From Opisthocomus hoazin (lineage: Eukaryota; Chordata; Aves; Opisthocomiformes; Opisthocomidae): 64,000 bases of DNA. The notes beneath the pieces were generated by a model. The model was not told where the DNA came from, made no database searches, and worked only from the letters and a program-made list of their open reading frames with translations. This document shows positions 13,401-58,641 of the stretch, one piece after another. How positions within the stretch are numbered: the stretch's first letter is position 1; every line of letters starts with the position of its first letter. Location of the stretch: NCBI RefSeq assembly GCF_030867145.1, contig NC_134454.1, positions 70,352,308 to 70,416,307 on the forward strand, written 5' to 3'. The position numbers and the translations under genes were made by a program.

Positions 13401-14124
13401 CTTTAGTTCCAAAGATCAGATGTACCCAGAAGGCAGCTTTACAGATGTAAGCGTCGTAGAAATAGAAGCTGATGACAAGAAGTCTTTTTCAGAACAAGAT
13501 CTAAAACCCTTTGACTTGCTTAAAAAGGAAAAAAGTACTTCAGAAGGGCACAGCAGTGGTATTGGAGGGTCCTCGTGCATGTCCTCTCCTAGGCAAAGTG
13601 TCTCTGACAGCGACGAAGGGGAAACTACACAAAACACTTCAAGCACTGTACAGTATTCAACTGTAGTACTCAGTGGCTACAGAGACCAAACACCTGTACA
13701 AGTCTTTTCAAGGTCTGAGTCGACTCAGCCACTGCTAGATTCAGAAGAGAGATCAGAGGATCACGCTGGAGGAGGTGACAGTACAACACAGAGGCAGCAG
13801 TATTTCAAACAGAATGCTGGTCAGGATGAAATCAACGCGGACAGCAGGCTGTGCTTTGAAAGAACAAAGCAGATTACTCCTGCTAATGAGGGGGATCTTG
13901 TTGGATTTGCAGAACTGCAGATCTCAGGTGAGGGTTCAGAGCTGTTGGGCCTTGGGCTGGAAAAAAATACACAGGAAGCTGCTCTATCAGATATTTTACA
14001 GACAAGTACTGAAGGACAGACTGTGAGACCTGAAACGGTGGAAGGAAATCCACTGTCAGTTGATGAAATGCCAAAAAGTTACCTCCCGCAGACTGTGAGA
14101 CAAGGGGGCTATATGCCTCAGTGA
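4366..14124 (+). CDS. IL6ST: IL6ST (gp130), 3' half, nine exons
   Basis: gp130 is the shared signal-transducing receptor chain for IL-6, IL-11, LIF, OSM, CNTF and related cytokines; it acts at the plasma membrane through JAK kinases and STAT3. The nine exons are 4366-4448, 5641-5860, 6911-7087, 7788-7889, 8449-8595, 9563-9703, 10980-11076, 12460-12541 and 13396-14124. They join with consistent phase into about 591 codons with no stop. In order they encode the three membrane-proximal fibronectin III domains, a transmembrane helix, Box1 (IWPIVPDP), a Box2-like acidic stretch (DVSVVEIEADD), the SHP2/SOCS3 site YSTVV, an STQPLLDSEE internalisation motif, four YxxQ STAT3 sites, and the conserved C-terminus ending in GGYMPQ. 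The signal peptide, Ig domain and cytokine-binding module are upstream of the window. Every splice site seen is GT/AG. In this window it looks functional, unlike the genes downstream. Confidence 0.97.
5641..5860 (+). CDS. IL6ST: IL6ST exon: fibronectin III domain D4
   Basis: The exon is bounded by TGACAG and GTTAGT. It reads SLEPFEANGVILQYEVTV early and ends PASNLKG. PFEANG and the following YEVT strand are gp130 hallmarks. NTT and NGT are possible N-glycosylation sites. It leaves one base of a split codon. Confidence 0.95.
6911..7087 (+). CDS. IL6ST: IL6ST exon: first half of fibronectin III domain D5
   Basis: The exon is bounded by TCACAG and GTATTT. It reads APVKNLRTLPKDGKLWVGW, then YVIEWC, and ends GTYLKG, matching the human D5 segment with its paired cysteines (EWC and HCIMEW). 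The phase (2 in, 1 out) matches both neighbours. Confidence 0.95.
7788..7889 (+). CDS. IL6ST: IL6ST exon: second half of fibronectin III domain D5
   Basis: This is a short exon between ATTAG and GTAAGT. It encodes DIKPFKCYLITVYPLYADG and KAYLQQ, matching gp130 CYLITVTPVYADG. It leaves a single C that combines with the next exon to give arginine. Confidence 0.95.
8449..8595 (+). CDS. IL6ST: IL6ST exon: first half of fibronectin III domain D6
   Basis: The exon is bounded by TTACAG and GTAACA. It encodes PSKGPTVQTKKVGKAEAVL and LPVDEQNGFIRSY, nearly identical to the last extracellular FNIII domain of mammalian gp130. The final NET is a possible glycosylation site split by the intron. Confidence 0.96.
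9563..9703 (+). CDS. IL6ST: IL6ST exon: second half of fibronectin III domain D6
   Basis: The exon is bounded by TTTAG and GTAAGG. It encodes TEYTLSSLTSDTLYTVRM and AYTDEGG, ending TFTTQKF, the strongly conserved end of the extracellular region. It leaves a G that completes a glycine codon in the transmembrane exon. Confidence 0.96.
10980..11076 (+). CDS. IL6ST: IL6ST exon: transmembrane segment
   Basis: The exon is bounded by CTTCAG and GTAAGT. It encodes KGEIEAIVVPVCLAFLL and the rest of the hydrophobic helix, then LFCFNKRDL as the basic stop-transfer. It is almost identical to the mammalian gp130 transmembrane exon and has the expected position and phase. Confidence 0.97.
12460..12541 (+). 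CDS. IL6ST: IL6ST exon: JAK-binding Box1
   Basis: The exon is bounded by TTACAG and GTAATA. It completes the leucine codon and then reads IKKHIWPIVPDPSKSNIAQW. IWPxVPDP is the Box1 motif that docks JAK1, JAK2 and TYK2. It ends in phase 0 after PAK. Confidence 0.97.
13396..14124 (+). CDS. IL6ST: IL6ST last exon: cytoplasmic tail with STAT3 motifs
   Basis: The exon starts at HNFSSKDQMYPEG and runs to the stop at 14122-14124. It carries the Box2-region sequence DVSVVEIEADDKK, a serine cluster (GHSSGIGGSSCMSS), YSTVV (SHP2/SOCS3 site), YRDQ, YFKQ, YLPQ and YMPQ (four YxxQ STAT3 docking sites), and STQPLLDSEERSED (di-leucine internalisation). The central part (about 13,830-14,030) differs from mammals more than the motifs do. 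The frame is intact throughout. Confidence 0.97.
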   Translation, partial: HNFSSKDQMYPEGSFTDVSVVEIEADDKKSFSEQDLKPFDLLKKEKSTSEGHSSGIGGSSCMSSPRQSVSDSDEGETTQNTSSTVQYSTVVLSGYRDQTPVQVFSRSESTQPLLDSEERSEDHAGGGDSTTQRQQYFKQNAGQDEINADSRLCFERTKQITPANEGDLVGFAELQISGEGSELLGLGLEKNTQEAALSDILQTSTEGQTVRPETVEGNPLSVDEMPKSYLPQTVRQGGYMPQ

Positions 14125-15590
14125 GGGAAGAGACTGGCTCTGTGTAGGCCTTCGTTAGTGCCTGTTCACACTTTCTCCTGTGTTTCTGATAAGTTAAGCT
14201 GGGTATTTTTATCTGAGTGCAGATAGAAATATTGAAACTAGGTGAAGAATAATTTGACAAAATACAACAAGGACTGTGTTTTTGTGGAAAATTTGCGGTC
14301 CAGACCTACTGGATACTGACTTCTATGCACTACATAAAATCTTATGTCTGGATAGCTGAACAAGCCTCTGTGCTACCTTGGTTTTTTTGTGTCTGGTCAT
14401 ACCAGATTTACACATGATTGAAAATTGCAAGTTTCAATCAATCACATCAGCCAATAGGCCTCCTAGAAGAAATACTTCGATTTGTGACAGTGTACAAGCC
14501 TAAAAAAGACAGGTTTAGTTGCTTGGAGCATCTTTGTGCAAAAGTAAGACTGAAGCTTAGTATGTTAACATGGAAGAGTACTTAAGTCAGATACTTTTCA
14601 GTAGCTTGATTGGCTTTCTGAGTTTTGACTTCGCCCAGTGTCTCACTTTTCAGCTTACCAGACATGCAAGTCGTGTTCATCCCCATTTAGAAATTATAAA
14701 AATTAAATAGAACTTGCTATGATGTGCAAATAAGAAAACACCATGATTGCTTGACTTTGAATGCTACTATAGTAACTGATACTCTGCCTACATGTAGATA
14801 TGCGTGCACATGAACTATAGAATAATTTGGCCTAAAAATGTGCCTTGCAACTTGACGCACAGCAATTCAGTCTCTTGTTCACAAGTTTTAAAATGCCGGT
14901 GAAAACGTAGATTTCACAGCTATATAAAGGCTTTGTACCCAAATCACTGTCTGATTATACCGTACCTCTCTGGCGACAGAAGTTGCCTTTGTTCAAGAAG
15001 TGCACCTTTGCTGTATACAGCTTGAGAGGCAAGTAATGAGCTGTAAGTTCTTACCATTTTTCTAACTGCTCAGGAGAAATGGAATATGACCTTCTTCCTG
15101 ATGGACTGCAACAATCAGTGTGCTATAACCTCACTGCTAATGCCACAGGGCCTCCTTGAAACTGAAAGAAGCAAAAAACCAAAGCACTGAAGTCATTGAA
15201 GCTTTCAGAAGAAAAAACAAAGCCTATCCACCGAATTGAACGTTACTGGTAGTATGTATCTACTAGCACTACTAGCAGTCATGAGCCACAAATAACACAT
15301 GGTTGTTAAAATTCCGTACTTTTTTTGTACGTCTCACTTTTCCCCTGTCATAGAGTTTGCATTTTGTTGAAGGAGATAGATTTCTTGGAGACTGTCTCTG
15401 CCAGGGTTTAAAGAAAATTGAAATTACATTAAACCCCTTCTCCAATGATAACTAGGAATTTTATGGCATTTTTGTAGGTATTTTTTTTTAACCTTAACTT
15501 AGTCAGCTTTCTAGTCTGACACTAATATAACCTTAATTCAAAACACTAAATGCTATGTTGTGAGAATAAAACAAGGGTTTTATTTCTCCT
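14125..15590 (+). other. IL6ST: IL6ST 3'UTR (minimum extent)
   Basis: This follows the IL6ST stop without a break and has no coding sequence. AT-rich sequence leads to a possible poly(A) signal AATAAA at 15565-15570. Mammalian IL6ST has a multi-kilobase 3'UTR, so the transcript may continue to signals at 17094-17099, 17111-17116 or 19214-19219. The sequence alone does not show which is used. Confidence 0.65.
15565..15570 (+). terminator. IL6ST: Possible IL6ST poly(A) signal, proximal
   Basis: AATAAA about 1.44 kb after the IL6ST stop, followed within about 25 bases by a T-rich stretch. Function is inferred from position and consensus only. Confidence 0.45.
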
Positions 15591-18500
15591 TCAGCAAAAG
15601 AGCTGTGTATTTAAGACCACCTGAAACCTTTTGTGCAGTGACCTCTGGTGCTGCTGTTCTGCAGAGCACTGGTTAAAGGCCCTGGAAAGGCAGGTGTCAG
15701 TATCCTTTCAACTTCCTTTGTCTTTGTCTGCCAGCTGGCATGGAAGGTCAGGTGTACATACATAAATGTTCACATGTGTCTTCTGCTTTTGTTACAAAGA
15801 AATTCAATGCTAGAGTAAATTCATAAGATTACCTCTTGAAGTCTGGACAATTTGAACAGATTAAGAATGGACAACCTTTAGTAACATTTCAGTATTTCAC
15901 AGTTCCTTTCTCCCAACAGTATTTTTTGTATCTGGGCACTTTTTTAAATGAAAAGGCTATGTTGCAGCTTACTATAACTACACCTTTCTTCAAACCAGTC
16001 CCCTACCTTTTCTCCCCACTCCACCTCAGCACCTTCAAACTCCCTCCCAGAGGGCAAGGGCATAGTGAAACCCATGCTGTCGTGAGACAGCAGAGACAGC
16101 CTTTTGTTCTTTCAGAGGTTGAAGGAGCATTCCTTTGTCAGAACACTTCTTTTTGAAAATATTACTGGGGGATGGGTCGTCTTCTCTATGCAAATTTCAC
16201 AGTGACTGTAAAGACCACAAGTAAAAGGGAAGGTCTCTGTTGACCGGTGTGCGTGCTTATTAGAACTGCCCTACAGCCACGTGCATCTAACCCACCTCCT
16301 GCTTGTCTCTGAAATACTGTGGGCCACAACCTGGCTACTTAGTCTGAACGTTGTTTCAAAGGCCTGGACATTTTCAAAAACATGATGATGAGTTCTTTTT
16401 TTTTTTTTTCATTGTTTTTTTGTGATCCAGTAATACTAAGTTTTGATAGCATATGTTCATATTTGAGGGACAACTTCAGTTATTCCTGAAGTTGCTATTT
16501 GCCTTTCTGTTGTGTAAAAGGAAGGTATTTTGTTCTCAATTGCTGTTAATCGTGGACCGTTTCCAACATTAAACAAACAGCGTCAAGGGATTCTCATTTT
16601 GAAAGGTCTGCGCTAACAAGAGTTCTGGCCTGTCACTTCTGGTATCTTTCTTTTTTTGTTGCTTATGGGCCAGTGGTAATAAACTCACAGAACCGTACAG
16701 GAGCATATCCCTGAGAGAATTTTATCTGTCTGGCAGAGTTACGTTCTGTCTTTCAGGCTTGTTGGGTATATTTAGGACTAAAATACTAAAGACTAAGCAG
16801 GAGATACTGGTGGGTGGACAGCTTGTAGAAGCCACAATACATATAAATAACAAGTTTACAGCTTGTTCATAAACCTATGTGCCAAATATTATATCATGCA
16901 GTGTTCAGGGTTTAACTTGATTTTGTACTTTGGATCTTAACAATCTAATTGTGTCAAACAGTTGCATACAGGTTTTTAGAGCATCCTTAATGTAGTTACA
17001 GCAATCCACTGAAATTTTCTGAACTTGGCCCTAACATAGCAATTAAAGAAAAAGCTTCCCTCACCCCCCCAATTACTATGGTGCACTTCATAAAATAAAA
17101 GCATTATTAAAATAAAATCACAGTTCAGTATTGACACTTTCATATCCATCTTGATTTCCTGGACTGGAATTTGTCAGGTGGGGGTTGGAGAATAGTTGTG
17201 AAGACCTTGTTGCTTTGGTGGCAGGGAAGGGAGGCTAGTAGAAGTATAAAGTATTTTTGCTATATTAGCCTTTTTGTAACATCTCTTGAGTGCAGGCTGG
17301 CTAACTGCCCCTCTGTTTACAGGAGAAGTGACTATATTTATCCCCATAGTTCTGTTGTGGTGGTTCTGTTAGAACGGGAAGGTTTTGGGGTTGTTTCTGG
17401 GGTTTGTTGGCTTGCTCTCAGGGCAGTTAGTCTGGGAATATCCTCTCCCACTGTAGGGAAAGTCTTGGGATTATGTTTCGTACACTCTACTGTAGTCAGC
17501 TAAACTGCCTGTGAAGCCTGAACCTGGCACAGCAAAGCAAAATTTTTTCCAGACTTCGTGCTGGAGTGTTTGTCACAAGCCTGTGCCTATCTGTGCTACA
17601 GCAGCCTAGCAAAATGTTAATTACCAGGACTGGAAAAAATCTTTGGCCCTGGGAGGAGGAAGGAGTTTGCACGCAAGGGCTGAGTCCGGTTTGTGGGCAC
17701 TGGAGCAGCACCATGGCCTGGGGTGGGGTTTGCAGCCGCAGCTTTGGCTGGAAATCACGAGCACCACCAGATCTTACTTCGGTTTGCCCAATATGGGAAC
17801 CACCGTGCTGATTTAACTTCAGTAATTGAACTTGTTTAATTAGTGCCAGGTCTTGCATATAGAAGACCCGCATCCATATGTGCTGCTATGGCGTTGACTG
17901 ACTTCACGGTGGGATCTGAAACTCCAAAGACTCTCAAATTGTTAATAGTCAGCCCCCGCTCCAGGACACACATATTTTAAATTGTGATTTATGTACATTA
18001 AATGGGACTAAATATACTAGTTTATTTTTCCAGAGGCAGTTGTTATAATTGAGATTAACTGTTGTTTGGACACATTCCTTTAACTATGTTAAAAAGGTCT
18101 CCCGAGTGATGGATTGTGAAACTTAATTGATCTCCTGTAACTTCTTGCCTGTTTGCTAGGATGGATACATATAGCCATTTTAAATTCCAGGAGTTGCTTT
18201 TCATGTGACTTAGAAGCAGTTTATAACAAAAAATATTTAGTCTTTTGTCAGGAAACAGCCATTTGGGAGTTACAGCCAGCCCCAGAGTCTTCAGCTTGAG
18301 CTCTTGATTGAGAAAAGTGCAGTGAAGTGAAGGTGTAAGTGAAAAGTCTGGAGAAGGGTAAAATTAAATATCTTGCATTGGACTCACAAATTCTCATTTC
18401 TCTTCCTTAAAAATGGAAGAAGCATTTAAAAAAAAAAGATTAAGCTAATACGCATGTGTGTTTGCTTTCGCTGTTGTTTCCTTTGTAGTACTTGTGCAAT

Positions 18501-19700
18501 CTGAGCCATTCCTAAAAATGAAAGCAGTGCTGACTTAATGCAAGGATGCATTTTTAAGGCCACAAGATTTGGTAGAAACAAGTTTAAAATTAATGACTAA
18601 GGGCCATATCTCAACAACTGTCCACTTCCCCCCCTCCTCCTAATTTTAGTGCAGAGGGAGGGTGGGCAGCAAGTACCAAGTACCTGCCGGAATGCAGCCT
18701 TAGCCAGTACTTCTGTTCATTTGCGAAGACAACCTTGAAGGGGATATATGCAGTGAGGTCACTGATACTCTACAGAAGCACACTTCTGTAACAACAGATG
18801 AAAAACACATGGCACAACTGTCGACAGACGGCTGGAAAGCTCCGCGTCCTCCTGCTCAGGCTGAAGCCTCGCCTGCGCCCCACACCGGCTGTCCTTCCCA
18901 GTGATGGCGGGCGCGGTGGGTGGGCGTTCACTGCAGCGTTGGAACTGGTAACACCTATCGCTCTTGTTCATGTTGGAGCACGTTCCTTGATGGATCCAGT
19001 CAACTTGCCGTGTTTTTTTAACACACCAGTCTTGTTTACAGTGTCACATATAGCCTGGCACTTCTATACCGCGATGCGTTGTCTGATAACCACGTGCTTT
19101 TTTATTTGGGGATAATGAGTCTACGGTCAAGGTTACTGGTCGCCAAGTGTCGCTGTGCTGGTACATGCGTCTGGGTAAGCAGAGGCATGGGACACAGGGA
19201 CAGACGTACTAACAATAAAAGTGCCTTGATGCTGGATTATGAATGGCTAGTGAATGTAAACATTAAGTCAAATTTTGCTATGATGTACTTAAAGTATGGC
19301 TGATTAAGCTACTGGTAATTTGAATGCCAGCTTTAAAGGGCTTGCTTACTCCAGCCAGAGGCTAAACTTGTAAATTGCTGCATAAGCTGTCTCTGTATGG
19401 AAATATGTTTTAATACCAATACACTATCTTCATTCTTTTGCAAGATGCATGTTTATTGTCATATAAACTCTGCTTTCTAAAATTTACTTTATGGTCAGTT
19501 TTGAATGTCTTCCTCTTTGTTACCCAACTGAGCCGGAATGTTGCATTTGTCTAGTACATGATGTATGGAGAGAAAACAAAACAAGATTCCTTACTTACCT
19601 TGTGTGCCAGAGTCAGTGTTTTGTAAGGCTGGCTCAGGTGGTAACCACAGAAGGAGAAGAGTCTGGGTACTACCTAACAGGCAAGGAACAGAGAGACCTT
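15591..19700. other. No recognisable gene; possible distal IL6ST 3'UTR, then intergenic
   Basis: I see no protein-like open frame and no CR1. There are T-runs near 16,398-16,430 and AATAAA hexamers at 17.1 kb and 19.2 kb. Base composition resembles the IL6ST 3'UTR up to about 18.7 kb and becomes more GC-rich after 18.8 kb. Confidence 0.5.
17094..17116 (+). terminator. IL6ST: Possible IL6ST poly(A) signals, distal pair
   Basis: Two AATAAA hexamers 17 bases apart lie about 3 kb after the IL6ST stop. A distal site would fit the long 3'UTR known for this gene in mammals. The paired hexamers make it a better candidate than isolated ones, but there is no direct evidence of use. Confidence 0.4.
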
Positions 19701-22340
19701 CCCTGAGAGAGACGTAACCACCGTACACCAGGACGAAACGCTACCTCATTGGGTGTGTGGCCCAGCTCAGCAGCAGGTGAACGCTCTGGAGTCCTCCCCT
19801 TGTGATCCCTCCTGTCGCCAGATGTCTGCTGCGGCTGTCCAGCCGTGGTGGTGAGACATGTCGCTGTCCCTGGGATCGGCTGTGTTCTCGCTGCTGGCCC
19901 TGGTGCGTGTGTGCTGTGCTCCAGGGTCTTGCCAGGAAGCAGCGGCTGCGGCTGACTGCGGCTCCCATGTGCCGGGGATGGTGTAGGTCTGCTGAAAATG
20001 GGAAGGGTACCCAAAAGGTTGGAAGGAACACTGCGGGAGTGAGGAGCAGGGTGTAATGCCATCTGCTTGCACAGACTCTTGTCCAAGAAAGGACTCGCAG
20101 GGCTGGCTGTGTCTGCCATTGCCCTCAGCCTCACCTGGGTTTGGTTCTTCTGTTTCTGATGGGTTCAGGACCATCATAGCTGCAGTGAGCTTACACCTCT
20201 ACTGAAAAAGCACACCTGTGTCTGCAGAAGATGGTCACGTCTGCAGCAGGCTTCGAGGGTGGCACTTGAGGAAAGACAGCTTCCCCTTTGTGGCTGTGAA
20301 GCTCCGCTCTGCGTAGGCACACTCAGACCCACATAAAACAGGTGTTCAGGGGGTGGGCTTGCGGGTGTTTGTTACGCGTCACCTGCGGCACCAAACAGCG
20401 TTTCTGTCACTGCACAGAAGAGCCATCCCAGACATGTGACACCAGTTAACACCTTGGTGTTAAATTAGGTGCAAACCTAACACCAGGCTCCTTTTCCAAA
20501 ATGCTAGCCCACGGCACAGTAGTTCACTCGTCCCTGTTGCACGTCAGGCCCCGGGGTTTCTGCAGGAGCAGGGTTTTTTTGCGTGTCCTGCTGACTGGAG
20601 CCTTGCTCCCAGCAAGGAGGAGGCAGCAGCGTTGTCTTCAGCGGCGGCCTGGCTGCTGGCAGAGCAGGAGTGCTTCCTGGAACCGTTAAAATAAACAGGA
20701 AATACGGCTGGACAGCGGGTGAGGGGAATGCCCTGCTTTCCGCAGGAGACACATAGCTGCGCGGCGTACGTGTCGGGAGGACAGAAGCTGCCAGGATCCT
20801 GGGAACAACCCTGCACCCCTGCGGCCGTGGGCCCACGGAGGAGCCAGGGACGCCCCAAGGGCCTGCGACCCCCAGGGCAGGCCAGGCCTGTCCGGCCGCG
20901 ATGGGCACCGGGCAGCAGCGCAGCGCGACGACCTGGGAGCGACGGAGGGACGCGCAGGAGCCCTGCCAGCCCGGCGCAGCTCGGGGCGGCGTGTTCGGAG
21001 GGCTGCTGCGGGCTTGCGGCTGTGTTCTGACCGCTGGTGGTCACAGTGACACACCAACCTCTCCGCGAAAGCGTCTTGCGTATCAATTTTCCAGACGTGT
21101 GCTGTTTGTGGTAGAGCGATGCAGTGCCTTCCTGTCTTTGCAGTGGTCTCCAACTGCCGTGAAATACAGCAGAGCCAAAGCATCCCTCCCACCCCTTACA
21201 AACAGCTAGGAACTTCCTGGCTCGGCCGGGGAGGCTCTGAGCACGAATGACGCAACGGGGAGGTACAGGGCGAATTCCAGGCTCGCCTGCAAAGTGGAAA
21301 CGTGTTGTGCGCTGGTGTGCCAGGCATTATGCTGGCTTTCCTGTCACGGTAACACCTTAAGTCACCCCAAGTGCTCGGGCACTGAGCTGGCTCAGGGGCC
21401 AGCGAGAGGTTTCGGTGCGGGACAGCTCTGCAGGAGCCGTCGCTGACATCCACCCGTATCCACCAGCACTCGGCCAGTCCCCTGCAGCCACTGGCACAGC
21501 CCCTCACCCTCAGCGCGCAACATCGTGCAGCAGGTTCTGGGCACCAAAGTCCCACATAAAGCTCCTCAGAAAGTGGTCTTCAGGGCTGTGAGAGCCTGGG
21601 GCGCTTGTTACCCCTGACAGCGGCCAAGCCGCAGAGACGTGCCAGCGAGGCTAGCTGGGACCAGCGAGGGAGTGTGCTTGTGCTGCGGGCAGGAGCCCCG
21701 GCATCGTCCGGAGACACCAAGCGCTGCTGACCCATGGCTCTCAGCAGTGCAGCACGGCCCTGCTCCCAGCCTTCCCAGTGGTCTTCGGGGAGGGCCTGGG
21801 TGGCCCAGCATGGCCCCAGCACCCTGGGCCCAGTTAGCCCACTGGGGCCATGCCGGGAAATGGCAACAGCATGTTACCATTAGCAGCCAGACAAGCTGAC
21901 TGCTCCAGCCCCAGCTCCTACCCATGGCCAAATTGCATATTTTTAATATTTCTTTTCTGACCATTTAATAAGTCCCCTTCGCTTTTCTCCGGCCACTCCC
22001 CTGTCAGCAGAAGCTCTGACCCTTGTTTCATGCTTCTCCCACCCTGGACCCTGAGCGGGACGTGGAATCCAGACCCACATGCGCTGCCAGGCAGGTCAGC
22101 GTCCCCGTGCCCTCTGGCACGTGTCCCCCTTGGCCAGGCCGCACCAACAGCCCATCCACACAAAACTGGCCCCCATCACTGGCTCCTTGCATCCCCACGG
22201 GCTGGCTGACACGCTGGGGTTTGCTAATAGGGAGCCTGTTCTCATGCATTGCTGCGGCCTGAATCACTGCGCTGCGCCATCCAGAGAAGTAATCACCACT
22301 GACCCTCATTTGTTACCAATATATATTCCCATGCACTTTG
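19700..22340. other. GC-rich intergenic block, no recognised gene
   Basis: GC content rises sharply here and falls again after about 22.3 kb. Open frames overlap on both strands with arginine/proline/alanine-rich translations that resemble no protein I know. That is what GC-rich non-coding DNA gives, because stop codons become rare. I do not call a gene. Confidence 0.55.
20760..21080. promoter_or_regulatory. CpG-dense patch (candidate orphan CpG island)
   Basis: CpG dinucleotides are unusually frequent here (runs such as CGGCGCAGCTCGGGGCGGCG), far above the AT-rich flanks. CpG islands usually mark promoters, but I found no first exon or recognisable gene on either strand. It may be the promoter of a non-coding RNA, a remnant, or simply GC-rich DNA. 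Confidence 0.4.
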
Positions 22341-23330
22341 GGAACAAACATGGGGCTCTTGAAGACTATTTCTGGACCAGACCTGTGCCAGAAAAACTCT
22401 TCCTGCTTGAATGGATGCAGCTTTTTCCCGTTTTAAGGAGATTTCACGCAGGAGAAAGAACACGTGTAGCTGCATGTGCACCAGAGAGCCACGGGGACCA
22501 CCCCACTGTGCACGCTGCTTGTCTCCATCACGGGACTGGGTTATGGAAGAGACAAGGGTGCTCTTTTGCTACTAAGACACATTTTTGTGGATGGGGTTAC
22601 CGTAATAACCTTTAAAACATATTCAGAATGCCATTTATCATGGATTACATGAAGCTGACCGTGTGTTGAGTCAGAGACACCTGAACAGGCACCCTCCTTC
22701 CCTCCTCATCTTCCTCTCCCAGACATTTGTCTGGACAAGCACTTGCCGATAGCCCCAGGACACAAAAGCAGATGCCTCCAGAGCCCACTCAGGGCATGGT
22801 GCTTTCAGCAAGTCCCTGTTACGCTCCATTTGCTGCATGCGTTTTCACTCACCCATTTGCTGGATGTCTGCCTTCTCTACATGAAACTAGTAACACTCCT
22901 ATCTGTGCCAGAGAGCCTTTTGGATTTACTTATTAATATAAATTAATGCTATTAGGTAGATACTGCATAGACACACATCTGTACATGAAAGAAAATTGAA
23001 TCATTACCTAAGTATGAAAAATAAAGGAACTTTTATCAGCCTTTGAATTTAGCCTGAATGCAATGCAGGAAAAAGGTCAGACTCTGTGAGAGTGCAACAT
23101 GTGGAGTATTTTAAATAAGAATGTCAACATAGAAACACCAAAAATAAACAAACATTACCAGAATACGAACTCCTTTAAAGGCAGTGAAACTGAGACTAAC
23201 CCATAAAAGCTGGAGTAAATAGAGATGCCTCACGCAACGTGTTTCTTTCCAGAGAGAAATTCAAGATAGCCAGCCCTATCATTAAAGAAAGAATCAGTCC
23301 TTTCAAGAGCAAACCTCAGCGGTGGGAGCA
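22341..23330. other. AT-rich intergenic stretch, nothing recognised
   Basis: I see no gene, no long open frame and no identifiable repeat. The GC-rich block ends here and AT-rich sequence begins. Confidence 0.5.
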
Positions 23331-23334
23331 GAAA

Positions 23335-23672
23335 GGACTGAAAAGTCCTCCTGAAAGGAGGTTGTAGTGAGGCAGGTGTTGGTCTCTTCTCCCAGGTAAC
23401 TAATGATAGGACGAGAGGCAATGGCCTCAAGTTGCTTCAGGGGAGGTTTAGATTGGTTATTAGGAAAAATTTCTTTACTGAAAGAGTGGTCAGGCACTGG
23501 AACAGGCTGCCCAGGGAGATGGCTGAGTTCCCATCCCTGGAGGGGTTTAAAAAATGTGTAGATGTGGCACTTCAGGATATGGTTTAGTAGGAATGGTGGT
23601 GTTGGGTGGGTGGTTGAACTCAGTGATCTTAGAGGTCTTTTCCAACACATGATTCTATGATTCTGTGATAAG
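23335..23672 (+). mobile_element. CR1 LINE 3' end, sense orientation
   Basis: The plus strand reads in CR1 sense: GGTAACTAATGATAGGACGA, the untranslated/C-terminal segment with CACTGGAACAGGCTGCCCAG and GGAGGGGTTTAAAAAA, and the 3' terminus GATTCTATGATTCTGTGA at about 23,650-23,668. It is a strongly 5'-truncated copy of roughly 0.33 kb. The left edge is approximate. Confidence 0.92.
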
Positions 23673-26600
23673 CTGGAGACAGCACGTCCAAGAATTTCTC
23701 TGAGGATGTGGCAACAAAAACCACTGGCCACAAAGGAAGCAGCGGCACTTGAGGGATTTTCCCTGCACACCTACACTCCTATCCCACATTAGATGCAGCA
23801 TTGCCAGCTCACTTTCACTGAGGAGTGAGCTACTTCACTCCTACCTTAAACTCACATCAGGAACCTGGTCCACATCTACTGATTAGCAGACCTACTAGTA
23901 AGTCCAAGGCTTAGGTAACTTCTCAGCAATTTGTTTGTAGGTTTTGCATTGTGACAGTCACAGAAACCGATGGCTCAAGGAAGTTATGTGTCCTTAGGGA
24001 CACGGGGCTGGGGAAGTGGGAACACGCATGGGGAGGGTGAAGAGGGAGGGAGGGAAAGGATGGGGTCACCTCTGTTCAAGATCAAGTGTCTCCTGTCGCT
24101 CGCATCCCAGTACATTGGGAGATGTAGTGCACAGCTTATATCCAGGATCATCTTTATTTTATAAAGTTAGTACTTACAGACAGAGAACCAGCCCTGTGTG
24201 CTGGAAGAAAGGTGAAAATTACCAAAATCTAAACTCCTGTGTGTCCATTTTCACCCCCAATGATTCAACACTCCCCTGCTTCCTTCCTTTCACAGCTCAG
24301 ATGGCGTGATACCTTGTTAGGCTCGTAAATTGCAGATACACTTCATCAGAAGTGTAAAAACAATTAAGCCCTTCTAATAATAGAAGCAAAAGCCAAAGAG
24401 AAATGCAGTCCGAAGACAAGTAAAACTCAGGGCCTATTTGTGAGCCCAGCTACAAAACTGTAAAAAACGTCACTGGAGATGAAAACAAATGAAGTGAGCA
24501 TGTTTGAAGGAGCTGTAAGCTCCTGGGAGACAGCCAGCAAAGGCAGCAAGCCATGAAGGCAGCTGGATGTGAGGGTTTCTGGGCATTATGCTAGTTATGC
24601 AAAAGCTTTACATTGAAAGCAAAGCCACTATCCCCCACTGTTTAATTCTTCCTCTGTGCAGAGGATTTTTAAACACAATTTGTGAATTAAAATGTGTGTA
24701 GCTCATAAACTATTGATGTTAGCGTAAATTCCTACTCCTAACAGGGAAAAAAAAAATCCAAACAGGAAAAGGAAACAAATATGAAAGCCCCTTCCAGCTC
24801 AAAAAAGACCTCAGGTAACTGCTAGAGTTCAAGACAGTAACAGATATATAATCTAGAGGCCATGCCCAGATTTAGCAGACACTGACAATGAGAAGATTCA
24901 CTTCAGAACCATGCAGCGCTCATTTGGTAGAATTAAGGATAGGAAGAAATTTCTTGCATCTTCTTACATTAAGACATAATTTGTGATACTGTCTTTTTAG
25001 AAAGCTTTTCAAGCACTTTTTTTTCCAGAATAAAGTGCTGGATTTAGTTCAGCGACGTTCTGAGTGGGAATCCCAGAGCATCTACCCTGATTATAATCTT
25101 ATGCTCATTGTTTCTGGCATCCCTGAATACTCTTGTGTAATCTTTCCGTGATTATGAAACATGCTACTTCTTCATCAAACTCCATTAGATATGCAGTTGC
25201 TTAGGTAATCATGAAAATTCTGCAGAAGTTACCCTTGGCTAGGTCAGCAGCAGACTCTGAGGATAACAACGACAGGCCCAGGAAATGTAAGTAAGGCTGC
25301 TTTTCTGAGAAATAAATACTCACTGCTAAACTTCAGTTCTACGGAGTCAGACACTGAAATCTAGATAATATAACAGCTGGCTCAGCAGGCTTTCAGCAAT
25401 GATAAAGCACTTGTAGCTTATCAGTGTGGGGCTGATCAATGCCTGAAAATCAAGACAATCTAAGCGGTTGAGAGAAATGTTGGTGGCAGACATTCAAACT
25501 TGATAGTGTTGACCTCATTACTCAGTAGGACTAGTCAATGTTAAAACAGGACTTCTGAAATATAAAACACCATATTATAGCATTGTTTCTTTGACTGCTT
25601 GCACTGGGAAACACAGGGCCGCTCCAGGCTCAGGTGGACGATGCTGTTACCGGCCACCCGCTAGGCTGCAGCAGCTCTCCCAGCTCCCTCATCCCGCCAC
25701 GCACGAGCGGCAGCGTAACCACCCTCCTCCACCCTCCCAAGGTTCACCCAAATAAGCCAGGACCCTGGGAACGGATGTGGTTATGCTACAGTTGGGGCAG
25801 CTCAGGGCAGCCTGCTCCCTGAAGTATGGATCTGTCAGACAGACTTAAGTACACAACTGGTTTGAAACTATTCCCCTTTCCGTTTGGGGAGAGCGTTTTC
25901 TACAAATACATTGCCTTTTAAGAGCTGAAGAAAGTAAAGCCTAGGAATAGGCAGAATGAAATAAGTGGTCCGTGTTTACTTTTCAAGTATCCTGTTTTAA
26001 ACAGTGAGGAGAACACATATACAACCATACATACACACCTCTGTTTCTGTTCATGTTTTGATATTCTATCAAAGAAAAAATATAATTTCACAGAAGAATA
26101 TGTTAGTCGAACATCTGTCCCAACTTTTGGATTGTCAGTCTTCATGTCCATGTTCTGAATTCAAAAGACAAAGATAAAACAATGGTTTGCATTTAATAGC
26201 AAGGTGGCAGTGAATGACTATGTACTCTTGGAAGAAGGGCCAAAAAAATTGTCACAGGAAAGGCCAGGAGAAGAGCAGGCCAATTAATCCAGGCTCACTA
26301 GAATTAATATAATTTGCCTAATATTGAAAAAAAAAGTTTCAGCTGAGTAGGAAAACTGGATAAAACTGAAAGACATAAAGTATTAAAAAGACAATATTTT
26401 GCTGAGTGTCCCACAGACTGAGAAGAACCACATGTACACAAAAATTGTACAGTTCGCGTTTAGTGATATGCCTAATGAACATTATGACTAAGAACTAAGT
26501 TAATACTACAAAATGGATGCTTAATGTTTTCCTGTCATCTTGATTTACAAATGTCATCCTTCGTACACAGGGCTAAACAATTGCTTAGATATGCTCTATT

Positions 26601-28630
26601 TTTGAGACAAGGGTAGCACATTTTCTGCTAAATAGCTCTATTACAAACATACCATAAAAGCACTGTATATTTTACTGTTGTCTTGCCAGGAAGCAGAAGA
26701 GGTTACTGTTAACAACAACCTGAACTTGCAATAAGCCCATGTACTTATGGGCTCAGGACCTACCTACACTGAGAATGCGCCCTCCTTCCTGCTATCAGTA
26801 TGGCAAACGTTAACATGGAGCAGAACAAGCCTTTCACCATCTTTGCAGTATATTTGAAACCAGAGCAAAGCAACTTGGAACACTAGCTCAAATTAATACA
26901 TATTTCACATGTTCACAAGCAAGTTTTATATTATCTCAAATCATTTTTGGTATATAAGCTTTATGTGTTATTTCCATGTAGCCTTTGGCAAAGTATCTTA
27001 GCTGAATATTTCAGAATAGCTCTTAGTAAAATATAAAGCTATTGAATAAATATTCATAAATCACCTTTTATAATCCTAAGGAGCATGACATTCGTTATTA
27101 GCAACACTGTTTTGTATGACCACTGAGATTTAGAATTGCATTGCTTGTTACATAAAAAACTTCCCAAATTTTGTGATGTTGAATCTTCAATATTTTGTAT
27201 TTTGACATCTAGGTTAGCAAAGCTTAAATGTTGCTACTGAATACCTGGAATCCCTGTTATAACAAAGCTCTTTTACTTAAATTCATCAAGAGACATTTCA
27301 AAAGTAAAATCTGAGACTTCTTTGAAATAGAGCTTCAGAATTGCTTTGTTATCTTTTCTTGTGACACTTCTAATCTCTGTCAACAAAAGACCAAAGGATT
27401 TGGTGCCATTCAGCTGTAAAAACTAGCAGCTGAAACCTCGCTTTCGTGATCACATCACATTGCATGCACTACAGTCCACCGGAGGCTGCAGAGAGCACGG
27501 CCTCCAGCATTTGTTCCACCCAGCCTTTCAGTGTCTTTTTGCAATGCATGAAACATAGCCCAGCATCACTGCCCTAAGATCTTTGTGTCTGCAGAGATGT
27601 ACTCAGCTTATCTACAGCAGTTGCCTTGCCTATCACAGCTGCAATCACTCGGCATTTAAAGTTGTTATCTTACCATTGATAATAGTTTTTCTCTCTACCA
27701 TGGGAGCACTAGAAGATACCTACACCATCACTGTAGTTCTTGACCTGATCCTGCCTGTGTCTCAATCTTCTTGGTCACCCACACTGCTGAAGTGCTGGTT
27801 TGCACTGAACTGCGAATGGAAGGAGCCAGCCACCTCCTCACAAGGGAAACTCAGACACAAAGGCAACACACACACTGAAACAAGGAGTGACAATCTAAAA
27901 GCGTAGCAATAAGTGCAGTGAAACATCAGTTAGGATATCTGGTCAAGGGCCAGGACCTTGTGGACTCCTATACTAAACTCCATGCATGACATAAACCAGA
28001 AGATCCTACCAGTGAAGCAGCTTGCAAACTCATATACACTGATGAGTAAGACTGAGCAGCAATATATATTACACAGACAACCACCTCCTCTGCAGGTATT
28101 GCTGCACAGCGTTAGATAAATTACAATACCTGACTGTGTCTGGGCTCAGGCACGCGCATACACAAACGTACTTAGGTGTACACAAACACTTCAACAGGTG
28201 ATTTCTCAGAGGAATCACTGCAGTTGCATAGATGATATATAACTGCATCACTTCTGCTGAAAATATACCAACTTGCAGGAGCAACAGGGCCACCTCATCT
28301 CTTCAGAGTCTACATCCTAAGATACTCTGCTTGCACAGATTCCAAAGGCAGCAAACAGTGAATGGAACGTTTGATCTTTCTTTATCTGTGAATGTCCAGC
28401 ATACTGGAAAAAGAATACTGTGTACAGAAACTGCACAATGCGCTTTCCATTGCATATGTAATTATGTTGTTCTGACTACACGGGTGCTTAAGATTTCTCA
28501 GACCAATTTAGTTAAGACAGGCATATATGCATAACGTCTGGTAGCTCTGCACACACCTTCATACAAAGACCAACAACCAACTGGGGGTAATCAAAATGCC
28601 CATAGAGGTAACTTAAGACTCGCTGGCAAG
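23673..28630. other. AT-rich intergenic stretch, no recognised gene
   Basis: About 5 kb with only short open frames and no protein similarity that I can name. I see no CR1 terminus or LTR pair. Any regulatory content cannot be judged without comparative data. Confidence 0.5.
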
Positions 28631-28639
28631 AAGCTCAGA

Positions 28640-31303
28640 ATGAGCAAGACATGAATGTGTCGAGCAGGTTAAAAAGCATTAAGATAACTCTAAAGTATCC
28701 ACGCAAGGACACAGCTGTCCAGGTCTCTGGCTGCAGGGAGTGCCTGAGCCTGGTGCTCGTACCGGAGGACAGCAGAGACAACTGCTGTGTTTGGTGCGAG
28801 CAGGTGAATGACCTGCTCAGCCTGGTGGCAGAGCTGAAAGAAGAAGTGGAGAGGTTGAGGAGCATCCGGGAGTGTGAGAGGGAGATCGACTGGTGGAGCC
28901 GCTCCCTGCCCTCCCTGAGGCCGAGGCAGCAGGAGGCGGCTCCACAGAAAGCAGAGAACCCCCTACCCTCTTGCCAGTGAGCAGAAAGAGGGGACCTAAG
29001 AGATGGGGGGGAATGGAAATGGGTCCCTGCTCGGGGGGGCAAGAGAATCCCCTCCCGGCCTCCCTCACCGGCCCAGTTGCCCTTAAGCAACAGATATGGG
29101 GTTCTGGAATGTGAGGGACCGGCCACAGAGGATGTGGGTGAAGGTGAGGCTCCATCCAGGGGGTTGCCTAGAACGAGTCAGACAGCCCCAAGAATGCCTC
29201 AACTAAGAAAAAAAGGAGGGTCATTGTCATAGGTGATTCCCTTCTGAGGGAAACAGAGGGCCCAATCTGCCGACCAGACCCATCCCACAGGGAAGTCTGC
29301 TGCCTCCCTGGGGCCCGGGTTAGGGATGTTGCGAAGAAACTCCCTGGTCTGGTGCAGCCTTCTGATTACTACCCCCTCTTGGTAATGCAGATTGACGGGG
29401 ATGAGATAGCAGAGAGAAGTCCCAAGGCCATCAAAAGGGACTTCAGGGCACTGGGGCAACTGGTTGAGGGATCGGGGTGCAGGTGGTGTTTTCCTCCATC
29501 CCATCAGTGGCAGGGAACAGCACTGAAAGGGGCAGGAAAACTCACCTGGTTAACAGGTGGCTCAGGGACTGGTGCCATCGGTCGGATTTTGGCTTCTTTG
29601 ATCACGGGGAGGTGTACACAGCACCGGGCCTGCTGGTGACAGATGGAGTCCAGCTATCTCAAAGGGGAAAAAGGATTCTTGGCCATGAGCTGGCAGGGCT
29701 CATTGAGAGGGCTTTAAACTAGGTTCGAAGGGGGAAGGGGACATCACCCACCTCACTAGGGATGAGCCCAGGCTTGGCGTGCCAGGGTCAGGGGTGAGAT
29801 TGACAGCCCAGCTCAAGTGTGTCTATACCAACGCACGTAGCATGGGCAATAAACAGGAGGAGCTGGAAGCCATTATACAGCAGGATGGCTACGACTTGGT
29901 CGCCATCACAGAAACGTGGTGGGACAACTCGCATGACTGGCATGCTGTCATGGATGGCTACAGACTCTTTAGGAAAGATAGACCAACAAGGAGAGGTGGT
30001 GGAGTTGCTCTATATGTGAGGGAGCAACTGGAATGCATTGAGCTTTGCCTGGGGTCAGATGAACAAGTTGAGAGCTTATGGGTTAGAATTAAGGGACAGG
30101 CTCATATGGGTGACATTACGGTGGGTGTGTACTACAGGCCACCTGACCAGGAGGAGGAAGCTGATGAGGCCTTCTACAGGCAGCTGCAAGCAGCGTCACA
30201 GTCACAGGCCCTGGTTCTCATGGGGGACTTCAACCACCCTGACATCAGCTGGGAAGACCATACAGCTAGGCATTCGCAATCCAGGAGGTTCCTACAGAGC
30301 ATCGATGATAACTTTCTGATGCACGTGGTAGAGGAACCAACAAGGAAAGGCTCTCTGCTGGACCTTGTATTAACAAACAAGGAGGGACTGGTGGAGAATG
30401 TGAAGGTCGGAGGTAGACTCGACTGCAGTGACCATGAAATGGTGGAGTTCAGGGTCCTGCGTGGAGGAAGCAGGGCAATAAGTAGGATCAAAACCTTGGA
30501 CCTCAGGAGGGCTAACTTTGGCCTCTTCAAGGAGCTACTGGGAGGAATCCCGTGGGCCAGGGCTCTTGAAGGAAGGGGGGTCCAAGAGTGCTGGTCGCTG
30601 TTTAAACGTCACTTCCTCCACGCTCAGGACCGGTGCATCCCCCTGAGAAAGAAATCGAGCAAAGGAAGCAGGAGACCTGCATGGTTGAACAAGGAGATTC
30701 TAGAGGAGATCAGGTGGAAGAGAAAGGTCCATGGAATGTGGAAAGAGGGACAGACCATTTGGGAAGAATACAGGAATGTGGTCAGAGCATGCAGGGATGC
30801 GACGAGGAAGGCCAAGGCCCACCTGGAATTGAAGCTGGCAAGGGATGCCAAAAACAACAAGAAGGGCTTCTTCAACTACATCAGCAGCAAAAGGAAGGCT
30901 AGGGACAATGTGGGGCCACTGCTGAATGAGGTGGGTGTCCTGGTGATGGAGGATGCAGAGAAGGCAGAGCTACTGAATGCCTTCTTTGCTTCAGTCTTCA
31001 GTGCCAAGGCAGGCCCTCAGGAATCCCAGGCCCCGGAGGTAAGAGAATAAGCTCACAGAGAGGATGACTTTCCCTTGGTCGAGGAGGACTGTGTGAGGGA
31101 TCGCTTAAGCAATCTGGACGCCCACAAATCCATGGGCCCAGATGGAATGCACCCACGAGTGCTGAGGGAGCTGGTAGATGTCATTGCTGAGCCACTCTCC
31201 ATCATCTTTGAGAGGTCCTGGAGGACAGGAGAGGTGCCCGAGGACTGGAGAAAAGCTATTGTCACTCCAATCTTCGAAAAGGGCAAGGAGGATCCAGGGA
31301 ACT
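28640..31303 (+). mobile_element. CR1 LINE with 5' half preserved and 3' half missing
   Basis: This copy keeps most of ORF1 and the N-terminal part of ORF2 in sense orientation, but stops abruptly at about 31,303, before the reverse transcriptase core and the 3' terminus. After the break the sequence is ordinary AT-rich DNA without a CR1 tail. That is the reverse of normal LINE truncation, which removes the 5' end, so a later deletion or rearrangement is the likely cause. The coding parts are listed separately. Confidence 0.9.
28651..29722 (+). pseudogene. CR1 ORF1 (coiled coil plus GDSL-type esterase), broken
   Basis: The first frame (28,651-28,980) has a cysteine-bearing segment (CCVWCEQVNDLLSLVAEL) running into a heptad-like stretch (VERLRSIRE), as in CR1 ORF1. 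After a stop, other frames continue with the esterase block: VIGDSLLRETEGPICR near 29,225-29,275 is the GDSL-type nucleophile motif, and VTDGVQLSQRGKRILG near 29,635-29,685 is the C-terminal end. In CR1-family LINEs ORF1 is an RNA-binding/esterase protein. At least two frame changes and a stop separate the parts, so it cannot make a full protein. Confidence 0.8.
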
Positions 31304-31305
31304 AG
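29779..31305 (+). pseudogene. CR1 ORF2, endonuclease part, truncated
   Basis: ORF2 encodes the apurinic-like endonuclease and reverse transcriptase. The frame is open for 423 codons and then hits an in-frame TAA at 31,048-31,050; the same frame continues to 31,305. Endonuclease motifs are in order: TNARSMGNKQEEL, ITETWWDNSHDW, VGVYYRPP, LMGDFNHPDISW and CSDHEMVEF. The linker and early palm-domain entry follow (MGPDGMHPRVL, PEDWRKAIVTPIFEKG). The RT catalytic motifs are absent because the element is cut at its 3' side. Only one nonsense mutation in about 1.5 kb suggests a fairly young copy. Confidence 0.92.
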
Positions 31306-34144
31306 TTCACTGAAATGCTTTTTATTTGGTGCTGCTTATTTGCAAGAAATCAGAAAACAAATTTCCTGAATACATCTGCACTTGACAGCTTTTATATTTC
31401 TACTGGCCTCTTAAGGCCGACCTTTCAGATGTAATACCCTAAGTTGTTCTTCATGCACACAAAGTGTAACTTATCAGGCACTTAGGCAATTAAAATTGCT
31501 GCCATAAACTTGCTCTTAAAGCCAGTAATGATTTGTGGAAGCATTTATGAACGCAGCATCAACCTTTATATACTCAGTAAAAATATAATTTGTTTCGGAT
31601 TACATCCTGTTTAACTGCCCAGAGCCACTATCACTAGAAGGCAATTGCTGTCTTTTAATTTGGCTTTTAACTTTTCACTAACATCACAGCTTTGGTTGTG
31701 AGCAGGAGGAAACTTCATCAAGTGAGCGCAGAAAGGAGTAGCTGGTAGGAAGCTCAAAGTGTGACTCTTCTGCTCCTTGGGGCCCCGTTGAATGTTTAGA
31801 TCATCCTTGTATTTATAATGTAGCTCATATTCGTGCAGCGCTTTGAAGATGTGAAGTAGAGCGAGGTTGTTGTGTCCTAATGCATAGACTTGTACTGCTT
31901 CTGGGAGTGCTTTTCCTGTTTCATTTTTGAGAAGTGTTCTTAGCTCCATCTCTGTAGACCTCCCATAGTATAACGAGCAGCATTTTCTCAAGCGTGACCT
32001 TCATCTTGAGAGTTTGCTGCAAATACCAGCTAATAACATCTCTTGTCTTCATCCTAGTGAAGACATTATCTCAGCGATGACAGTACATCTGTCATTGTAG
32101 AAGACACAAATACAACAGCCCTGGTCCTGGAAAGCTGATGAAGAAGCAGACGAGTAGTATTGGTGACAAAGTTGTAGTGCCCTCCTGAGTTCCAGGTGTG
32201 GGCTCTTAACACACAGAAGGGATCCTGCGTGTTCCCTGCACTTTTCCTCCTGCTGTATTTCAGCACTAAGATTGCCAGTTCAGTCATTACCAAAATGTCT
32301 TGGGTTTCAGATGCTGCGAAGGCTTGGATTTGCTTTGGTCCTGTTTACAGAGCATGGCAGTCTGAATGCTGTGACTCGATGTGCCTTCTGTCTGTCTGTT
32401 CCTGCTCTTCAATGGCAAATAACAACCTTTACTTTGCAGAACCAGTCAGAGTAGCATAGCGAAGTGACAGGCTGGGTCAGGAAAAGGTTAAGTAGCGCTG
32501 AGCTGCCAAGTGCTAATAACTTTCATTTCACAAAGGATTGCTGAATGTGTTTAAAGGAGTCACCAGAGTCTTGTATTTGTAGCGTTTCTGCTCCAAGGGT
32601 CCTGAAAATGACAGGTAAAAATCTGGTTTTTTATGCCATGGTTTTGTTGCACCAGCAGTAAATGCGCTTGCAGGGAGGTTGTAGCTGGGAGCTGCTGAAG
32701 TAAAACATGAAAGATATTAAAGGAGAAGAAATCCTGTTGCTTTGTAACCCTATGGCCTTTATTTAGCCCTAAATATGCTTCCGTAAGCCATGGCTAAAGT
32801 CTTTAGCTTTTCACTTCTGTCTGATGGCTGCCCAAGCTTGTTCACGGGCAAATCTTTGGGTCTGCAGGAGGAGGCATTTATTGAAATGGTGAATTTAGTC
32901 CCTTGGAAAGGTGCTGCCTTGAGAGGAGCCAATGCCTCTGGTGAACTGTTCCACTGGTACAACCGGAGAACTGCGGTGGGTGCTTTTACTTCTCTGAGCT
33001 TTGGCTGCCTCGGTGCTGGTAAACCTGCCAAGACACCTTCCTCAGCTTGGGCTTTTCTGAGGCAGCCGAGCACTGTTGGTTATTGCTGAGGGGGGCAAGG
33101 AAGGAGTCGCAATTGTTTATAGGGCTAAGGACGTGCTGCAGCAAGAGACCACAGCTGAAGGGTAAGAGTTTTTAATCACCAAGAGCTTTTGTCTAGATGT
33201 GAACCAGTAATCTTCCTAGTGAGAGACAGCTCAGCCGGTTCCTTGGGTCAGACAGTTCTGCCATAATTCATGGGGTTTTTGTTTTCTGCAGTAAAATAAA
33301 TAGATGTATGGGTTGGGGTTTTTTCCTGCTTTATATCTTGTCCCTTTCTGTTGCGTTTATTATGCTTATTCTAAGCAGACAGCTTATTTTTGATTTATTC
33401 ATACCAAGCACATGTTCATACTGAGCTGCTAGCAAAAGTGCATGATGCAGACAGTTACAAAGGTGATGTGCTGCTTTGAAGGAATTTGGAATCTTTACTA
33501 TATAAAGCCAGTGGATATTAGATGCCAATACGTGCACTGCCTAAATTAAACCGGATCAAAAATCCAAGAGTTTTCATGAATGCATGCAGTCCTTGTTTTC
33601 GTATCTATTCTGGATGCCGTGAAACAAGTAACTGTAAATATATAGGCTGTTCTTCTAGAATCACTAAGTTGTGATCCTGTGCCTCTTCAGGAGTCTGTGC
33701 AATCCGTGGCGCAATGTGCTGAAAGTTACAAAATACACCTGGCCCTGTATTCTGAAGCTCACTCGCTTGTTCACAGAAGAAATGCCACAGCTGATTGTGC
33801 CTGGGATAAGGGCTACCTTGGGATCGCTAGCGGTGATTTGGTGGGAGTGTTTGTGCAGCCTCACCTAGTACAGCTGCAGAAGGAATTGCAACCTTGAGCT
33901 CCGTTGTTGTATGTGAGGGGTAGCACACTCTTATCTAGCCTGGGACAATATTGGAGTCATTTTTTTATGCAATTTAAACTCCATATTTTCTTTTTGAAAG
34001 TACTGTGATAAACCATGTTCATGAATTCAAGCAACATTTTCTTCTTTAGGAGGTAAAATACAATGGTACAAATTCTGCAAGGTGAGCCTTTCTTGATTTC
34101 CCAGCTTGCTCCCCATAACAAGTGTTGTTTTCTGCCCTCTGCAG
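31306..34144. other. Unassigned interval between the truncated CR1 and the ZC3H18 copy
   Basis: The 3' break of the CR1 is at the left edge and the first ZC3H18 coding exon is at the right edge. A noncoding first exon or CpG-rich promoter of ZC3H18, expected somewhere upstream, is not visible. Two open frames could be remnants of unrecognised exons: minus strand 31,611-31,991 (listed separately) and plus strand 33,679-33,897, which follows an acceptor-like CTCTTCAG and reads ESVQSVAQCAESYKIHLALY. I cannot name either. If the window joins two chromosomes, the join probably lies here or in 19.7-28.6 kb. Confidence 0.45.
31611..31991 (-). other. Unrecognised open frame, 126 codons
   Basis: The frame reads MRKCCSLYYGRSTEMELRTL at its start, has a helical-looking middle (EAVQVYALGHNNLALLHIF) and ends with a lysine-rich tail and ALGS before a TAA. 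Its composition is more protein-like than most random frames here, which sit in AT-rich DNA. I cannot match it to a family and see no promoter or convincing splice context. It may be a remnant exon or chance. Confidence 0.2.
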
Positions 34145-34746
34145 ACTATTGGATACGGATGGACGTTTCCGACAGCCCTGAGTGAAACCCCTACTCTCCT
34201 GACGAGGAGGACCAGCAGCTTTCCGATGACAAAGTCCTGAAGGAGAGCGGTTCAGACCGCGAACTTGATGGAGAGGGTGGGCAAGGTAGTGTCATGGGAG
34301 AGGAAGAGGAGGATGCAGCCAGGGGACTGAGTCATGGTGAAGAGGAGAACCACTCGGGTGAAGAGGACCCCCTAAGTGAAACCAAGTCTCAGGAGTCTGA
34401 CAATAACAAGCAGAGTGGAGAGCTGAAGAGCCGTCTGCCTCACAAAGGAGAGGAGGGAGACCGGACAAATGACCTTGGTGATGAAGCGTCCTCTGTCACC
34501 TGTGAACTAGATGAGCATGAGTTGGACTATGATGAGGAAGTTCCTGAGGAACCAAGTGCTGCTGCTGCAGAGGAGGATGGTGAGAAAGCTGCTGGTGAGG
34601 ATGATGAGGAAGAGGAGAAAGGAGATGATGCCCATGAAGATGAGAAAAAATCCAGCAGTAAAAGTGACGATGAAAAGGATGGCCAGGATTCCCTCAAGGA
34701 GAAGAAAGAAGAAGACGATGGAGAAATTGATGATGGAGAAATTGAT
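34145..34746 (+). pseudogene. ZC3H18: ZC3H18 remnant: start-codon exon with acidic region
   Basis: After a CTCTGCAG acceptor, ATG at 34,159 reads MDVSDSPE and is then stopped by TGA at 34,183-34,185. The same frame continues [20 protein letters not shown] and onward through [20 protein letters not shown] to [12 protein letters not shown], all clearly ZC3H18. Where a donor is expected (34,747) the sequence is ATAAGT, which looks like GTAAGT with its first G changed to A. The frame then runs to TAG at 34,759-34,761. Re-initiation at the ATG at 34,294 could give an acidic peptide of about 155 residues, but no zinc finger. Confidence 0.9.
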
Positions 34747-35719
34747 ATAAGTAGGAGCTAGTCCGAGGTGGGCAGAGTCCTGCAGGGAGAGACCTGTCCT
34801 CCTGTTTCAGAACTGTTTGGCTCTTACACTGACGTGCCTTCTTAATTCTTTGACCCAAATATCTGTGTTAGCTGTGTCTCCAGTGTGCAAGTAACACACT
34901 TTTTCTTTGGAGGTAAGACCATACTATGTACCAAGTCCTAAACTCAATGGCTCGTAAGATGAGTACCACATACTATAGAAAACCTTTATGCCAGGTATTG
35001 TCAGAGCCATCAGAAATAAGCTTTGTTCCCACTGGCTCCAGTGCTTTAAGAAACTGATCTGCGTCAGCCCTTGGAGGACTTTTGAATGATGCCGACACCA
35101 AATTACTTAGCTGTGGATTAGACGTTCATAAGATGTCTCATCAGTTTGGGTTGAAGGGCTGGTGCTGCAGAGTGGCTGCCATGTGCTTGAGGCATCAAGC
35201 GTGGGTGGGAAGCCCGTGGCCCTTAGCTGTCTGTCAGGCTGTAGCGGCCTCTGGGCGTGTGGAAGAGGAAAGGAGCGTGCTGGGCTTTGTGGAAAGAACC
35301 TAACCGGGCAGCCCCGGCGCATGGTTTGGGTGATGTGTTCAGGGATGTGCAGCTGAGTAGCTGCTGTTTCATAGCTGAGAACAAACGCAGCCATTTAAAA
35401 ACATTGAAAACTGGGTTTAATTGCATTGGTAATTAGGGCAAATAGCACTCTTTATCCATGTTTGCCTTTAGGTAGGAAGCACTGTGGTACAACCGTTGTG
35501 TTTAATACTAGTTTCCCTGTTGCAGGCAGAAGAAAACAGGACAAAGTGGTTCTAGCAGTAGAGTAGAAACCCTCCTGTGTGTTCCTGGTTTGGTGGACAC
35601 TTTACTCAGATCTGAACAGTGGGAGTGCAAAGTACTACAAAGAGAAGCTGCTGGTCCAGAGCACCTGCCTGGCTCTGCTCCTGGCTGGCCGTGCCAAAAG
35701 TGCTCCTGCGCAGCTAGAC

Positions 35720-36150
35720 TAGGTTGGGGCAGTGTTGGGAGAACAGACCGGGCTGCATCAAAAGCAGCGTGGCCAGTGGTGCAAGGGAAGTGATTCTGCC
35801 ACTCTGCTCTGCTCTGGTGAGTCCTAACCTAAATACTGCGTCCAGCTCTGGAGCCCCCAGCACAAGAAGGACGTGGAGCTGTTGGAGCGGAGCTAGAGGA
35901 GGCCACAAAAATGATGTGAGGGCTGGAGCACCTCTGCTGTGAGGAAAGGCTGAGAGTTGGGGCTGTTCAGCCTGGAGAAGAGAAGGCTCTGGGGGGACCT
36001 TGTGGCAGCCTTTTGGTACTGAAAGGGGGCCTGTAGGGAAGATGAGAAAAATCTTTTTAGCAAGGCCTGTTGTGATAGGACAAGGAGTAACGGCTTTAAA
36101 CTAAGGGAGGGGAGATTTAGACTGGATATAAGGAAGAAATTTTTTACAGT
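35720..36150 (+). mobile_element. CR1 LINE fragment, sense, lacking its 3' end
   Basis: The plus strand has the CR1 segment ACTGCGTCCAGCTCTGGAGC, CCCCAGCACAAGAAGGACGT, AGGAAAGGCTGAGAGTTGGG and GCCTGGAGAAGAGAAGGCTC, ending near AGGAAGAAATTTTTTACAGT. The usual next part (CACTGGCACAGG..., then the terminal GATTCTGTGA repeat) is missing. It lies in an intron of the ZC3H18 copy. Edges are approximate. Confidence 0.85.
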
Positions 36151-58640: not shown

Positions 58641-58641
58641 C

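Follow-up and report, generated by a model that had tools for sequence, protein, structure and literature searches.

A probable decayed interchromosomal segmental duplication next to IL6ST on the Z chromosome of Opisthocomus hoazin

The adjacency of IL6ST and ZC3H18 in Opisthocomus hoazin is very probably (roughly 90%) the result of a decayed, DNA-level interchromosomal segmental duplication of the ordinary kind on the Z chromosome. The window, which is the whole 64,000-nucleotide stretch of DNA that was analysed, corresponds to C41:70352308-70416307, and 100 kb on either side of it was also read, giving 264 kb of contig C41 in all, with an N count of 0. The inserted block is a degenerate stretch of about 31 kb from the ZC3H18-IL17C-CYBA region that occupies positions 31304..62390 of the window on the plus strand, with an approximate right edge. 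It is collinear with another contig, C12, up to window position 52775, and from 52776 onwards it is recognized by its gene content.

Z-chromosome genes on both sides of the block

Genes were located by tblastn with typed human sequences as queries. The 3' exons of IL6ST (gp130; residues ~326-918, to the stop codon) lie at 4368..14124 on the plus strand, and its 5' exons precede the window, at about -7.9 to -1.0 kb. Together, the exon matches cover residues 12 to 918 on the plus strand, between about -7.9 kb and 14121. In PDB, the final exon hits gp130 with an E value of 6.2e-72, which bears out the presence of IL6ST in the original prediction. To the right of the block, the search of the 264 kb revealed IL6ST-family matches at 73.4-91.9 kb on the minus strand, and one exon of this gene has gp130 as its best match in PDB (2.4e-10). 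Its position suggests that it is an IL31RA-like gene. DDX4 exons follow at 122.6-133.5 kb, also on the minus strand, with up to 87% identity, about 59-69 kb beyond the window end. The order and orientation of IL6ST, IL31RA, and DDX4 on C41 are presumably those of human 5q11, which we take to be ancestral. The block breaks into the Z gene order, which restarts about 11 kb past its end. Because the IL31RA-like gene and DDX4 reappear on the far side, the block is an insertion into an otherwise ancestral gene order, as far as this order can be taken from human 5q11. MVD, SNAI3, and RNF166 gave no tblastn match on C41 within 100 kb of the window.

C41 is 91.3 Mb long, in an assembly of 1.482 Gb and 415 contigs. 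It is the Z chromosome by gene content, although few genes are involved, because IL6ST, the IL6ST paralogue, and DDX4 are located on it. DDX4 is reported to serve in the sexing of neognath birds as a conserved gene specific to the Z (PMC11768705). The sizes of 20 of the 415 contigs were obtained. Fifteen of them, between C1 and C39, decrease in size from 157.5 to 1.25 Mb (C12 has 30.2 Mb); C40 measures 50.4 Mb, and each of C42 to C44 is below 0.15 Mb. Such a series is consistent with 39 autosomes listed first and W and Z after them.

The left junction lies at 31304, where a CR1 piece meets sequence collinear with C12 from C12:2148091, as determined by blastn of C12:2144412-2153035 against the window. 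This join between a Z-type and a chromosome-11-type block falls within the interval 14124..34160, in which it had been placed originally. Read by eye, the junction has microhomology of 1-2 bases at most, and the 3.7 kb of C12 to the left of 2148091 had no blastn match in the 264 kb of C41. The CR1 piece (29707..31303, plus strand) comprises the 5' part of ORF2, namely the endonuclease and what follows, in two open reading frames (29707-31050 and 31051-31305), the first of which matches Exo_endo_phos in Pfam at 8.9e-18. The frames immediately upstream, from 28612, presumably represent the remainder of its 5' part; that at 28612-28980 had no Pfam match. ORF2 of this CR1 stops at the left junction, in the middle of the reading frame. 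CR1 copies usually retain their 3' end, and the ORF2 domain would be expected to continue; if so, the insertion event truncated the element. The missing 3' half was not found at the right edge, and the only CR1 sequence of the same orientation within 46 kb to the right of the block is 159 bases at 79.8 kb.

The right edge probably lies at about 62.3-62.4 kb, because the CYBA exon ends there, an old CR1 starts at 62390, and GC content drops from about 0.58 to 0.41. In the right flank (62390..63891), two old CR1 pieces of opposite orientation enclose an (AGAAT)n array at 63229-63375, with about 29 copies of the repeat.

Between IL6ST and the CR1 piece, a stretch at 19500-22500 reaches a GC content of 0.60, compared with about 0.4 around it. 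The segment 14300-23300 matches itself alone in the assembly, and none of six open reading frames in the GC-rich 20-22 kb stretch scored above the Pfam cut-off. Within 23301-31303 of the Z, the whole-assembly search covered 28000-28300. Rfam gave no match in the window.

Decayed genes in the block

Sequence of ZC3H18, IL17C, and CYBA follows IL6ST at 34.2-62.3 kb in the 16q24 order, and both order and orientation are presumably those of human 16q24. The original prediction of these three genes downstream of IL6ST holds for the sequence and its order; as genes they do not stand, since what is present is fragments, with ZC3H18 broken and CYBA frameshifted. The ZC3H18 pseudogene extends over 34159..56560 on the plus strand, as traced by tblastn and by comparison with C12. 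On the Z, codon 9 is an in-frame stop, whereas on C12 it encodes Arg and the frame is open. The splice donor after the codon-9 exon is AT on the Z compared with GT on C12, and a second in-frame stop lies near 49.65 kb. The core exons for residues 202-237 and 279-401 had no convincing match on the Z even at loose thresholds, and the exon for residues 310-361 is present on C12 only and absent from the Z copy. Because of the codon-9 stop, the loss of the donor, the second stop, and the missing core exons, the Z copy of ZC3H18 is clearly broken. It is an unprocessed pseudogene, and its codon-9 stop and donor loss are disabling changes that C12 does not share.

The last exon of IL17C (60210..60437, plus strand) has an open frame, was found by tblastn, and matches PF06083 (IL17) in Pfam at 2.1e-13. 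Compared with typed human IL17C, it is four residues short in the cysteine stretch, a shortfall that may be typical of avian IL17C. The last coding exon of CYBA (62275-62114, minus strand; tblastn) is frameshifted, as read by eye from three-frame translations, and no further CYBA exon was found in the 264 kb of C41 at E 0.01. CYBA on the Z is therefore a remnant. ZFPM1, sought to the left of ZC3H18, gave no match at E 1 in the 264 kb of C41 or in the 5.6 kb of C12 that were read. The window also contains two 3' ends of CR1 on the minus strand, at 924-1947 and 46967-47470, which resemble each other at about 90%; the second lies inside the block.

The locus on C12 and the age of the copy

When the first exon of ZC3H18 (window 34150-34770) was compared with the assembly, the matches listed comprised two, itself and C12:2150912-2151535, at 96% identity. 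The C12 exon for residues 310-361 (C12:2160052-2160207) shares 92% identity with typed human ZC3H18, from which it departs at three internal residues of a conserved stretch. Farther along C12, pieces of MVD occupy 2189887-2194869, with RNF166 beyond them at about 2206 kb, so that ZC3H18, MVD, and RNF166 follow what we take to be the 16q24 order. A gap of exactly 200 N stands at C12:2189445-2189644, with minisatellite arrays directly beside it. In the assembled C12 sequence at this gap, where they would be expected, neither IL17C nor CYBA was found, nor were the 3' exons of ZC3H18 and MVD. The source copy is thus intact for the ZC3H18 exons that were read on C12, while its ZC3H18 3' exons, IL17C, and CYBA are unassembled there.

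Window 31304-36151 aligns with C12:2148091-2152888 at 92.4% identity over 4768 ungapped sites (K2P 0.081), with 22 indels. Nine further collinear pieces up to window 52775 have a pooled identity of 92.0% over 4003 sites (K2P 0.086, range 0.050-0.151), a value that covers the nine matching pieces and excludes C12 samples without a match; one matched piece is just 86% identical. Outside CpG, K2P is 0.060 in the main alignment and 0.057 in the pooled pieces, and in the first coding exon of ZC3H18 it is 0.038. The introns of the Z and C12 copies are therefore about 92% identical where they can be aligned, above the level of about 90% that marks an interchromosomal segmental duplication, and the collinear DNA on the other chromosome includes introns. 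Of the 20 pieces in a first C12 sample, 8 were collinear with the block. Seventeen pieces of this sample fall inside the aligned span, and nine of these had no collinear match, including four at 2156-2162 kb, in the part whose ZC3H18 core exons are missing from the Z copy. A second sample gave no piece collinear with the block (0 of 20), although some matched repeats. A 7.6-kb piece of C12 carries the collinearity to window 52775, which corresponds to C12:2189444.

The avian neutral rate is near 2e-9 per site per year. Combined with K2P, this rate suggests an age of perhaps 20 My for the duplication, as a rough figure.

The right third of the block (52776-62390) has no assembled counterpart, and the C12 gap stands at this place. 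Copying can therefore be seen in the left two thirds of the block only, because C12 has the 200-N gap beyond. A search of the assembly with window 56300-60460 returned ten matches; apart from the self-match all were weak, none of the nine exceeding 72.5 bits. The likeliest reason for the absence of the right third on C12 is assembly dropout of GC-rich sequence.

Origin of the block

The features of the block are those of an interchromosomal segmental duplication with an unprocessed pseudogene: introns were copied, the junction lacks long homology, identity is about 92% where aligned, and decay has been independent. No difference in kind from such duplications was found. A stretch spanning 41 kb or more in present C12 would have been copied as DNA, introns included, and would have landed on the Z between IL6ST and the IL31RA-like gene. 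Its left end may have been joined to the CR1 element almost without microhomology, by end joining or template switching, which are preferred over recombination between repeats because at most 1-2 bases are shared. The ZC3H18 copy would then have decayed into a pseudogene. A processed pseudogene made by LINE-mediated retrocopying would resemble the block in being a copied gene on a different chromosome, next to a LINE. In contrast, the block on the Z contains several genes and introns that are present and alignable, and because these were copied it is not a retrocopy.

The original prediction favoured a fusion of the Z with chromosome 11 at a point inside the window, giving a neo-sex chromosome like that of parrots. 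C41 does extend about 20.9 Mb past the window, which is near the size of avian chromosome 11. A Z-11 fusion is reported to be common to all parrots, with the entire chromosome 11 (23.7 Mb) joined to the Z (PMC8854603). Opisthocomus hoazin resembles this case in that a single chromosome carries both Z-type and chromosome-11-type sequence, and differs in that the insert is only about 31 kb, Z order restarts after it, and the chromosome-11-type locus keeps its own contig. The IL31RA-like gene and DDX4 indicate that the sequence beyond the block is still old Z, ZC3H18, MVD, and RNF166 reside on the separate 30.2-Mb C12, and the ZC3H18 within the block is broken. Chromosome-11 gene order does not continue past this junction, and the locus lies on a separate contig. 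In addition, no tandem TTAGGG or CCCTAA, which as interstitial telomere repeats could mark a fusion, was found in the window. A fusion at this point is thus highly improbable, and it was dropped in favour of a chromosome-11 segmental duplication inserted near IL6ST, which the original prediction had listed among three alternatives and which agrees with the data.

The stops in ZC3H18 also raised the idea of a neo-W copy, which was rejected, as ordinary Z genes flank the block. For the presumed W (C40), no match was listed for the assembly-wide queries 34150-34770, 14300-23300, and 56300-60460.

An assembly chimera, in which C12 sequence was misjoined into C41, was the remaining alternative in the original prediction. 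The N gap of C12 lies in the very same neighbourhood, a sign that the region is hard to assemble. Such a misjoin is nevertheless very unlikely because the aligned copies are about 8% apart and 22 indels separate them in the 4.8 kb of the main alignment. The stop, the lost donor, and the absent exon are likewise peculiar to the Z copy, and the 264 kb of C41 contain no N. It is equally improbable that the distal part (the ZC3H18 3' exons, IL17C, and CYBA) was moved rather than copied, so that the remnants on the Z are the sole ones in the bird. The search with window 56300-60460, which gave no other good match in the assembly, and the direct passage of C12 from ZC3H18 to MVD are in line with such a move. 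This jump on C12, however, coincides with the 200-N gap, and the MVD 3' exons are missing too, as would be the case for unassembled GC-rich sequence. CYBA is the p22phox subunit of the phagocyte oxidase. The idea that the distal segment was relocated to the Z and that working IL17C and CYBA were lost at the old place, with remains on the Z only, is slightly less credible still.

Under the preferred segmental duplication, copying from C12 to the Z, the adjacency of IL6ST and ZC3H18 taken by itself was a false lead towards a Z-11 fusion; the 200 kb of flanks and the genome search with ZC3H18 reveal an insertion. A decayed copy on the Z can preserve a GC-rich locus whose counterpart sits in an assembly gap, and annotation can be misled by it.
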